The notes beneath the pieces were generated by a model. The model saw nothing but the letters and a program-made list of their open reading frames with translations, searched no databases and had not been told where the DNA came from. Positions 30,513 through 62,502 of a DNA stretch of 64,000 bases are shown here, piece after piece; positions within the stretch are counted from its first letter, which is position 1; each line of letters begins with the position of its first letter. This DNA is from Lutjanus erythropterus. Its lineage: Eukaryota; Chordata; Actinopteri; Lutjaniformes; Lutjanidae. Location of the stretch: NCBI GenBank assembly GCA_020091685.1, contig CM034601.1, forward strand, positions 8,558,419 through 8,622,418, given 5' to 3'. The position numbers and the translations under genes were made by a program.

Positions 30513-30514
<2 letters not shown>

Positions 30515-30585
30515 GTCTCTTATACACATCTTAGGAAGACAAGCACTGACGACATGATCACCAAGGATCGCCATAGTCCATGCTA
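30513..30585 (+). other. Residual library adapter (Tn5 mosaic end plus MGI/BGI linked-read style adapter)
   Basis: Positions 30513-30531 are exactly the 19-base Tn5 mosaic-end sequence used in transposase-based libraries. It continues as TTAGGAAGACAAGCACTGAC and ends TAGTCCATGCTA right at the gap. The TCTTAGGAAGACAA string is part of BGI/MGI adapters, and the whole agrees with my memory of the stLFR bead adapter. It is an artefact of assembly and not genomic sequence. The frame 30467-30847 that reads through it is spurious. Confidence 0.93.
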
Positions 30586-30774
30586 NNNNNNNNNNNNNNN
30601 NNNNNNNNNNNNNNNNNNNNNNNNNNNNNNNNNNNNNNNNNNNNNNNNNNNNNNNNNNNNNNNNNNNNNNNNNNNNNNNNNNNNNNNNNNNNNNNNNNNN
30701 NNNNNNNNNNNNNNNNNNNNNNNNNNNNNNNNNNNNNNNNNNNNNNNNNNNNNNNNNNNNNNNNNNNNNNNNNN
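30586..30774. other. Assembly gap (189 N)
   Basis: This is a run of unknown bases between adapter sequence and a resumed (TA)n tract. The true content is probably the middle of the microsatellite, and the length given may be an estimate. Confidence 1.
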
Positions 30775-46187: not shown

Positions 46188-46420
46188 CTATGAATGCAAA
46201 ATCCTGGCTTTGCACTGTTACCTGTCACCAAGCTCCCTTTGTGTGTGTGAAGCGAGCGAACAGTGTGAATCTCCTGCAAGAAAGTGTGTTTCCTCACATG
46301 AACTAGCGGAGCTGTTCCGTACCAACCCTCTCAAACATTCACAGTAATTACCTTCCCATGATTTTTGCTTTGTGATTCTTGTCTTGTCAATACTGCTGCT
46401 GAAATCCATTATTAAATATT

Positions 46421-46456
46421 TTCTCTCCCCTCTCTTTCTTTCTCCTTCAGGTGAGT
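46421..46456 (+). promoter_or_regulatory. Candidate recursive (ratchet) splice site
   Basis: A pyrimidine tract of about 27 bases (46421-46448, nearly all C/T) ends in CAG at 46448-46450. It is followed without a gap by GTGAGT at 46451-46456. A 3' splice site fused directly to a consensus 5' splice site is the defining motif of recursive splicing in very long introns. Branch-point-like strings (TACTGC, GCTGAAAT) lie 45-60 bases upstream. No conventional exon frame starts here: reading on from GTGAGT meets TGA within 15 codons in that frame. The site would act only if a transcript crosses the window on the plus strand, which I cannot show. Confidence 0.45.
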
Positions 46457-48479
46457 GTCAGTCAACAACATGTGGATTATTCCAGTCAGCTGTGAACTCC
46501 CGCTGAGTCCGTCTGCATTGCTTTTTCCTTGCACATCGTTGTACGGGTCTGCCATCAGGTTTGAAAAGATTGCCCCCTTTTCACCGTGATTCGCTGTGAT
46601 TTTGATCAAAGAGAGGCGGCAGTGTGCCCTGAGAGATGGGCTTCATGCAGCTGAGTGCCGTGGTGGTCTCTCCTCGGCAGCTCTGGTTGCTTTTGGCTTG
46701 AGCCATATGGAGATAAAAGTAAATGTCACTGGTGACTGAGGGCTTTTGTCTTTGTCAGATGTTCATAGTGTTCATTGTCTCAGCTTTACTTGATCTCTGT
46801 TGACTCTGGTAGCTTCCAGGGAACTGAATGGCTACTGTATTTAGGAAACCTTTGTTTGTCTTTTTTGGGAGTACTTGTTATTCAGCGGTGTGCTCTCCAG
46901 CTTCTAGTGTTTACTGCAGAATGTGGGCTGATTACTGATTACCGCTGACTGCAAATAGAAAGTAATCTTGTGCTTGAGTATTCTTTTCTTAACAAGTTCT
47001 TATTCTGAGGACATTTATGTGCTTATGTGTTGTTCGTTTATGCAGCCGTCTGAAGTGCGTTTGGCTGAAAATGTCTGACCTTTTTCTACACATTGCAAGA
47101 AACAATGACAGATTATTTGTGAAGAGAATAAGCAGCTTGACATTGTTCTGACAAGTGACATGGGTGGGTTAAGATTAAACCAATATATTATGTTGAAAAC
47201 GCATAATTTCACCTGCCTCACCCTGCATTTAGAACCATTTAGGAATTTTTTCCATTCCACCTCGGTCGAGGTTCCAAATGACCAGAGCCAATACTGTATG
47301 TTGTCTTGTGTGTTGTGACACTGCAGACCACTGATTGGTCAGAAGGCATCGTCAGTTGCATTGTCACTTGCAAAACTTGGACATCCTACACACAATTCAC
47401 ACTCCAGGGATCAAGTAAAAGATGAGTTTGTTGATTTAAAAAGATGGACCAGAAATAACTATATTATTCTGATATTTTCATATGTAGAAGTTCATCACAG
47501 GATAATCAATAGTTAGGCACATGATGGTTCAAGAGATATATATCAAATACATGGGCGAAGCAGTGTTGTTCAAAGTCTAATTCATCGTTTTATCATGAAC
47601 TCCAACACCACACTTCATAAACAGGATCTACTGTTATTTGTCTGTGTGCAGAAATCAGTATGGAATTGTGATAAAGAGTAAACAACTTCCTCTACACTTC
47701 TAAGATCTGTGTTTACACTACAGGTGCCCCTATTTAATACATAATGCTTGATTACATTTTGGATCACCTTGCTACATAAATTAGAACATTAATGAGGAAA
47801 ATTGCAGGAAATTAGCAGCTTAACTGCTTCTTGTCAGAAGTGCTACATGATTAAATTAACGTTCCATAATTCAGGGCATAAATTAAAACTTAAGTAATTG
47901 TATTTAAAATAAAATATAATTAAACAAAGCAGTTCCCAAGTATGGTGTCGCACACTGACATGCAGCAATGAAAAGCACTGTATTAAAATATTTCGATTGT
48001 TAAAGATACCTAACTCTGATGATTAGAAAGCGTTAACCTTATTTTTTTTAAGAATAAAGTCAGCTCTATCTCTGGATTGGTCCTGTAAGTTTCAGGATAA
48101 TTTATAAGTGGGTGGTGTTTTGAGCTATTTTCAACCCATAAAATACTGTTTTTGTTTTAAATAAATCTACCGAGAAATGTCGATATTAACACCAACACTG
48201 ATGTGTTTCATCACAGTACAGTAAAATAATTTAGTTTACAACTCAAAAATCATGTTTAAGTGTGCAGTACCTCTTTATACTGTAGTCTAATTGCTTTTAG
48301 ACGTCACACACAGATGGAAGCCACTGTGAAATACTGGCAGCAGCATTTGCAGACGCAATTCTGTAACAATAAAATGTGATATAAATGGCATAATATGTGT
48401 TTTTTTACCCTGCCCTGGTGGTTAAGAGCAGTCTCGACAGCAATATTGCACACGTGCATACACACACACACACTCCAGT
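46457..48479. other. Gene-free sequence
   Basis: 46600-46740 is non-repetitive and GC-richer than its surroundings. 47290-47345 contains 'CACTGATTGGTCAGAAGGC', shared in part with 62753-62771 (TTGATTGGTCAGAAGGTG), probably two bits of one old repeat. The rest is AT-rich. Confidence 0.4.
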
Positions 48480-56945: not shown

Positions 56946-57320
56946 TGCACTTTATCACATTCTGTCTATTGGAGGGGGGCTCTAGAGGGCAATTAATCAT
57001 GTATTGTCCCCTTGAAGGAGACTAGAGTACACGTTACCATGTTTTCTCACAGAAGGGGCACTCTATAGAGCAACTTATTATTTTTCTCCACTGGAATTGA
57101 GCTTTAGAGTACATTTTATGATCTTTTCTCCACTAGAAGGGCACCTTAGAGGGCACTTTAGCATGTTCTCTCCACTGGAAGGGTACTCTATAGGGCAATT
57201 TATCATGTTTTCTCTACTGGAAGGGCACTCTACAGGGCACCTCTCATGATTAGTCCACTGGAAGGGCATCCTTGAGGGCACTTTATCACATTGTCTCTAA
57301 CACTGGGCCACTCTAGAGAC
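56946..57320 (+). repeat. Minisatellite, about nine 41-bp units
   Basis: The unit is approximately CCACTGGAAGGGCACTCTAG then AGGGCACTTTATCATGTTTTCT. Units are diverged, at about 40-43 bp spacing, so the array is old. The minus-strand frame 57078-57281 with its periodic proline/serine/glycine pattern is a translation of the array. Confidence 0.85.
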
Positions 57321-61844: not shown

Positions 61845-62470
61845 TAGAATCATAAAGCGTTCTTCAGTTTGTCCCCGCAGGAGAACCCTGTTTGTTTCCC
61901 CTTCCTTTTTTCCCCTTCCTAAAGCTTTCACTTGGAATCCTTTTTGAGAGTTCAATCCAGAACCTTTCCACTTTCTAAGGCTGCTAAGATCCCATCCAAG
62001 GGGGTTCTACTGAGAGCCTTTTTATGTCCCAAAGTTCTAGAACACACCCAGGGAGTCCTACCAAGAAGCCTTTTATATTCCAAGGTTTTTATCAGGGAGG
62101 CATCCAGGGGGTTCTCCCGAGAACCTTTTTATATGCCAAGGGTATTATCTTTCATCCACCCAGGGAGTTCTACCAAGACTCCTGTTATATCCCATGGGTT
62201 TTATCTAGAACCCATCCCGGGGTTCTACTAAGACCCCTTTATGTCCCAAGGGTTTTATCCAGAACCCAACAAGGAGCTTCTACGAAGAACCTTTTTTATA
62301 TTATATGGATTTTATTTAGAACCCACCCAGGAGGTTCTATCATTAATCCTTTTATATCCCAAGGGTTTTATCTATAACCCATGCAGGAGGTTCCAACAAG
62401 AACTCTTTTAAATTCCAAGGTTTTTATCAAGAACCCACCTAGATGTTCAAGTGAGAACCCTTTCATATTA
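61845..62470 (+). repeat. Minisatellite, about nine 56-bp units, with leader
   Basis: Units start at TTCTAC-like strings near 62005, 62056, 62111, 62168, 62223, 62278, 62335, 62391 and 62447. The consensus is roughly TTCTACCAAGAACCTTTTAT then ATCCCAAGGGTTTTATCTAG, AACCCACCCAGGGGG. The leader 61845-62000 resembles 54885-54960. Frames 61932-62231 and 62024-62377, with repeated FYQ/LPR motifs, are only the array translated; the units are not a multiple of three and frames shift. Confidence 0.85.
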
Positions 62471-62502
62471 TGGTACAAATAACCCTTGACAAAGCCTTCA
62501 CA

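Follow-up and report, generated by a model that had tools for sequence, protein, structure and literature searches.

A predicted recursive splice site in the long first intron of cadm1a in Lutjanus erythropterus

Introduction

In a stretch of DNA from Lutjanus erythropterus, a long polypyrimidine tract ends in CAG and runs directly into GTGAGT, so that a 3′ splice site and a 5′ splice site are fused. The question raised by this arrangement is whether it is a recursive splice site, i.e., a ratchet point at which a very long intron is removed in steps, and, if so, to which gene that intron belongs. The window, by which we mean the whole stretch of 64,000 nucleotides that was analysed, corresponds to C11:8558419-8622418 on the + strand of a genome of 937.6 Mb in 444 contigs. 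Coordinates without a contig name are positions in the window, and a slash marks a splice junction.

Recursive splicing is described differently in flies and vertebrates. In the long introns of flies, ratchet points are reported to be 21.7-fold more frequent than on the complementary strand (PMC2773006). The published Drosophila consensus, (Y)nNCAG/GTAAGT (PMC5126111, PMC2773006), is the same fused sequence as that of the window, apart from GTGAGT in place of GTAAGT. Vertebrate recursive splicing, on the other hand, is said to require an RS-exon (PMC8758631). A human study reports that an RS-exon was predicted after 50% of saw-tooth sites and that 68% of RS-exons introduce a stop codon (PMC6110456).

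Results and Discussion

Sequence and strength of the fused motif

The elements of the site are as follows.

46345..46448, + strand: AG-free stretch (AG exclusion zone), from AG spacing across the window
46397..46403, + strand: candidate branch point TGCTGAA, whose A (46402) precedes the AG by 47 nt, from the sequence
46419..46448, + strand: polypyrimidine tract of 30 nt, from the sequence and pyrimidine fraction
46449..46450, + strand: AG of the 3′ splice site, where the incoming ratchet step is predicted to end, from the acceptor score
46451..46456 (C11:8604869-8604874), + strand: GTGAGT, predicted recursive 5′ splice site, from the donor score and the genome motif count

The pyrimidine tract is uninterrupted, its final pyrimidine being the C of the CAG, and CAG/GTGAGT follows at 46448-46456 without a gap, as in a recursive site. 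The original prediction had described about 27 almost pure pyrimidines before CAG/GTGAGT; the fusion stands, but the tract was understated in length and purity, as it spans 30 nt and is pure. The window contains 13 AGGTRAG sites, counting both strands, and this is the sole pure-pyrimidine case among them, in keeping with the claim that it is the one strong example. In the 28 nt preceding the AG, the pyrimidine fraction is 1.00, against 0.64 at the runner-up AGGTRAG site. TGCTGAA is what we take to be the branch point, on the basis of the branch-point consensus.

Splice-site strength was scored with approximate weight matrices rather than with MaxEntScan. With these matrices, the site ranks first in the window both as an acceptor (of 8160 AGs), which makes it a strong 3′ splice site, and as a donor (of 7485 GTs), and its combined score is 20.8, the second-best of the 434 AGGT sites in the window scoring 11.7. 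The site is still the best of the 2010 AGGT sites when 314 kb of contiguous sequence are considered, the next one scoring 13.0; over that span its acceptor ranks second of 40366 and its donor is one of the three best of 36017. The preceding AG, at 46343-46344, lies 106 nt upstream of the AG of the site, a gap that ranks as the 23rd longest of 8160. Among the 112 acceptors scoring at least 5, for which the median gap is 28.5, only two, the window site included, have a gap this long. The 301-bp region around the site has a single match in the genome at E≤0.001, namely itself.

The window lies in the first intron of cadm1a

The original prediction saw no recognisable exons in the window, and this is borne out by ab initio exon finding, which yielded no credible exon in the window alone, and by a Pfam search of 506 window ORFs of at least 48 aa (519 after low-complexity filtering, minus 13 overlapping simple repeats), in which matches were at chance level (best E 0.00098). 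With no credible exon to go by, the window by itself gave no name for the host gene. An Rfam search of the whole window gave 6 matches at E≤1, of which 3 lie on TA repeats and none reaches the gathering score. The base-composition skew (TA +0.020 and GC +0.014 in the window; TA +0.024 and GC +0.005 over 200 kb) fits transcription of the + strand, yet it carries no weight because base asymmetries in fish are reported to be unlike mammalian ones (PMC2927911).

The window also holds degenerate tandem arrays at 62036-62471 (units of about 56 bp) and 56983-57299 (units of about 42 bp). A perfect 19-nt copy of CTGTCTCTTATACACATCT lies at 30513-30531, after a TA microsatellite; 189 consecutive N (30586-30774) follow 54 bases later. 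We take CTGTCTCTTATACACATCT to be the Nextera transposase mosaic end, presumably a sequencing adaptor remaining in the assembly.

The host gene emerges from the flanking sequence, where the following elements were placed. Window-extended positions continue the numbering of the window downstream.

C11:8320470-8320542, + strand: coding part of cadm1a exon 1, from the N-termini of six percomorph proteins
C11:8708927-8708944 (window-extended 150509-150526), + strand: in-frame cadm1a microexon of 18 nt, GAGCTGCACAGTACCCAG, encoding GAAQYP
C11:8748131 (window-extended 189713), + strand: start of cadm1a exon 2
Window-extended 189679, 212459, 213683, 228563, 238905 and 249706, + strand: starts of the tblastn matches to exons 2-7

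A tblastn search of the 200 kb downstream of the window recovered six exons of a CADM1 gene, exons 2-7, in order and on the + strand. Once joined, the Ig1 domain gives a match of E 2.9e-46 to PDB 4h5s_B, "Cell adhesion molecule 1", and over 285 joined residues the identity to percomorph "cell adhesion molecule 1a" reaches 97%. Exon 1 was found 238 kb upstream of the window as a match to residues 1-27 at 85% identity (C11:8320470-8320550), and its native donor, AAAG/GTAGGA, directly follows the coding end at C11:8320542. Between exons 1 and 2 lies the microexon GAGCTGCACAGTACCCAG, flanked by CAG on its 5′ side and GTAAGC on its 3′ side; GAAQYP or a near variant of it is present in five of the six percomorph proteins, while the Chaetodon isoform P0001 lacks it. 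Exon 2 itself begins with TGGTGAGTCAGAAC, which places a donor-like GTGAGT motif two bases inside the exon; it is possibly an exon of the EJC-protected kind.

By protein similarity, the host gene of the window is cadm1a, on the + strand, and the intron is intron 1. Measured from exon 1 to the microexon, this intron is 388,384 bp long and contains the whole window, so that the site lies on the sense strand of a long first intron. Position within a very long intron and transcription of the plus strand had both been proposed from the window; each holds, exon 1, the microexon and exons 2-7 all being on the + strand and flanking the window.

The relatives of this gene are known for recursive splicing. 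One publication counts human CADM1 among the genes that undergo recursive splicing (PMC8758631), and a mouse study, which refers to introns of >300 kb, reports a saw-tooth for Cadm1 in 71 of 149 cells tested (PMC5809388); Cadm1 is unnamed in the main text of another mouse-brain study (PMC8797253). The gene described here is orthologous to human CADM1 and mouse Cadm1 by protein similarity and shares with them an AGGT-type site and a very long intron, but it differs in carrying two strict motifs (see below) in one intron, known from sequence alone; it is genes that are compared here, not site positions. Closer in lineage, the recursive site of zebrafish cadm2a (Sibley 2015) also belongs to a fish and to the CADM family, and blocking it with an antisense reagent is reported to lower the mRNA about 2-fold (PMC5126111); that site lies in another paralogue and was tested experimentally, whereas ours is predicted. 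Among the titles and abstract openings of the literature considered, none reports a recursive site in cadm1 of a fish.

A second strict motif in cadm1a intron 1

The genome was searched with a strict pattern, Y14-N-YAG/GTRAGT, composed to fit the window site, and with a looser Y10 variant. The strict motif occurs at two places on the sense strand of cadm1a intron 1.

C11:8441006 (G of GT), + strand: second strict motif, CTCTCTTTTTCTCTCTAG/GTAAGT, from the strict pattern search
C11:8604869 (G of GT), + strand: strict motif of the window, from the strict pattern search

Because the pattern was composed to fit the window site, a test is provided by the second site only. The frequency in the genome predicts 0.0052 sense-strand strict sites for intron 1, and the probability of one more strict site in this intron, given the first, is 0.005 (0.021 at the loose rate). 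The second site scores 17.8, its preceding AG lies 65 nt upstream, and it is followed by a possible 96-nt RS-exon ending at GAG/GTGATT (donor score 3.5). The part of intron 1 at C11:8320801-8508418 (about 186 kb), except for 1.5 kb around the second site, was covered by pattern search only. It was considered whether one of the two motif regions is a copy of the other, and this was rejected, as their best shared match is 17 nt long, on opposite strands, with E 0.028.

Throughout the genome, the strict motif is found at 25 places (18 on the + strand and 7 on the - strand) in 2 x 937.6 Mb, which makes it much rarer than the motif of a 2009 survey of zebrafish, and the loose motif at 106. Neither is in excess over its reversed control (37 strict and 154 loose); the controls are in fact the more frequent, so that chance may account for most of the motifs in the genome. 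The vertebrate host and this count below the reversed control set the present case apart from Drosophila. The evidential weight is in the joint location of the motifs in one known gene, not in the genome-wide count.

It could then be argued that, at the window site itself, a run of pyrimidines in a long intron has come to lie next to CAGGTGAGT by accident and is left unused by the splicing machinery. The reversed controls speak for this explanation, as does the 2009 survey, in which ratchet motifs in zebrafish long introns are reported at 0.112 on the sense strand versus 0.120 per 100 kb, without enrichment (PMC2773006). Against it, none of 900 Markov simulations of the window (300 each at orders 1, 3 and 5) matched the site, and 30 Mb of order-5 simulated sequence, searched on both strands, contained no fused-motif hit. 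Chance would also have to account for the 104 nt free of AG upstream of the acceptor, for a second strict motif in the same intron and on the same strand, and for the publication of the mammalian counterparts as recursive-splicing genes. Although it is the best surviving of the alternatives, we regard it as improbable.

The paralogous cadm1 gene, on the minus strand at C4:29.01-29.02 Mb, has no strict or loose motif nearby, the last motif on C4 being at 23.3 Mb; the loose motifs considered here are 100 of the 106 places, in contig order, which reach C23 and thus cover C4 fully. Among these 100 of 106 places, same-strand pairs at most 250 kb apart number 7, against 1.3 expected if the motifs were uniformly distributed (0 of 2000 randomisations). 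The strands of close loose pairs agree in 7 of 10 cases (P 0.17 on strand shuffle), and no claim of a strand bias is made.

Proposed stepwise removal of intron 1

In our reading, the element at 46419-46456 is very probably a recursive splice site, predicted to act as a ratchet point for the stepwise removal of the 388-kb intron 1 of cadm1a. The use of the two sites, the order of the steps and their effect on mRNA output are what we infer from their arrangement. The two motifs cut the intron into segments of 120,463, 163,863 and 104,058 bp. In a first step, the exon-1 donor AAAG/GTAGGA would be joined to the ratchet site at C11:8441006 (AG/GTAAGT), which would rebuild a donor, AAAG/GTAAGT. This donor would be spliced to the window site at C11:8604869, yielding AAAG/GTGAGT, from which the last step would lead to either the 18-nt microexon or exon 2. 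Under this scheme, intron 1 would be cut out as three fragments (120, 164 and 104 kb), and the mRNA would retain nothing of the window site.

Scored with the approximate matrix, the reconstituted donors AAG/GTAAGT (8.18) and AAG/GTGAGT (7.99) are suited to reuse and exceed the native AAG/GTAGGA (4.75), which fits a ratchet in which every step gives exon 1 a better donor. Were the sequence following the window site retained behind exon 1, it would read HKGECQSTTCGLFQSAVNSR and then reach an in-frame TGA at 46504-46506, 54 nt in. The window site thus has the stop codon looked for in an RS-exon, and if the second step failed, this stop would probably lead to decay of the mRNA.

Sequence downstream of the window site

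Two ends can be proposed for an RS-exon at the window site.

46451..46558, + strand: 108-nt stretch that may be a cryptic RS-exon, up to a weak CAG/GTTTGA (donor score 0.2)
46731, + strand: alternative RS-exon end, giving 281 nt, at CTG/GTGACT (donor score 2.6; weak assignment)

The best donor downstream of the site scores 2.6 within 500 nt and 2.9, at 713 nt, within about 1 kb. These weak donors count against the window site, because vertebrate sites are described as needing an RS-exon. The Drosophila zero-nucleotide sites are similar in this respect, as the window site likewise has no strong downstream donor. It is conceivable, if doubtful, that the window site acts as a ratchet of the fly type, with zero nucleotides and no defined RS-exon, as part of a wider reading in which giant introns of neural-adhesion genes are ratcheted serially.

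A strong acceptor with no good donor downstream would also suit a cryptic last exon of the type repressed by SFPQ, in which exon 1 is joined to the window acceptor and the transcript ends at a downstream poly(A) site. SFPQ-repressed cryptic last exons, known from long introns of zebrafish, resemble the present case in combining a cryptic acceptor with a long intron in a gene of neural type, but they terminate at poly(A) sites, and the authors who describe them separate them from recursive splicing (PMC7997972). Poly(A) signals do occur downstream (11 in 3 kb, including ATTAAA at 47174 and AATAAA at 47908, 1457 nt away), but the nearest of them is 723 nt away. Moreover, a cryptic last exon leaves unexplained why the acceptor junction is precisely where the best donor of the window begins and why cadm1a intron 1 contains a second fused motif. 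We consider it marginally less probable than chance. An ordinary alternative (poison) exon of cadm1a that starts with GTGAGT by coincidence and is regulated as an annotated RS-exon is the least probable of all: annotated RS-exons are reported to be prevalent in deuterostomes and the retained sequence would add a stop codon, but neither of the donors that follow (score 0.2 after 108 nt, 2.6 after 281 nt) is convincing, and both are far weaker than the recursive donor, a situation in which reporter work is described as favouring skipping (PMC6224609).

Fused motifs upstream of IgLON genes

Strict motifs come in a pair elsewhere in the genome as well. Two of them, C11:32021022 and C11:32153498 (L029 and L030), both on the + strand, lie 132 kb apart, and the second is followed by a candidate RS-exon of 56 nt ending at TCG/GTGAGT. 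A probe for IgLON genes, a fragment of human LSAMP, gave 95 matches among the best 141 of 553 candidates. Among the matches listed are IgLON exons at C11:32357930-32428094 on the + strand, with Ig1 first, and those of a second IgLON on the - strand, at C11:32548611-32699769, which faces the first. We take this convergent pair to be the layout of human NTM and OPCML. The two strict motifs precede the Ig1 exon of the + strand ntm-like gene by 337 and 204 kb, and a loose motif at C4:427234 (+ strand) is located 282 kb ahead of an lsamp-like Ig1 exon on the same strand (C4:709678, 74% identity).

Two IgLON genes figure in the literature on recursive splicing: OPCML is published as a recursive-splicing gene (PMC8758631), and Lsamp/LSAMP has recursive sites in mouse (PMC8797253). 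The IgLON motifs are a lead only, because the region was examined on account of its motifs coming in a pair. A tentative idea, which we think could hold but would not expect to, is that fused motifs mark the giant first introns of neural-adhesion genes as serial ratchets, with two in cadm1a, two upstream of the ntm-like IgLON and one upstream of the lsamp-like gene.

Implications

A call made from the letters of the window alone proved to fall in a gene whose orthologues are known for recursive splicing; strand and intron are as they should be, and a second motif accompanies it. This suggests that, in fish, a strict fused motif together with the long first intron of a known gene is predictive. 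Two exact positions are now defined at which to study why the giant introns of brain genes leave in steps.
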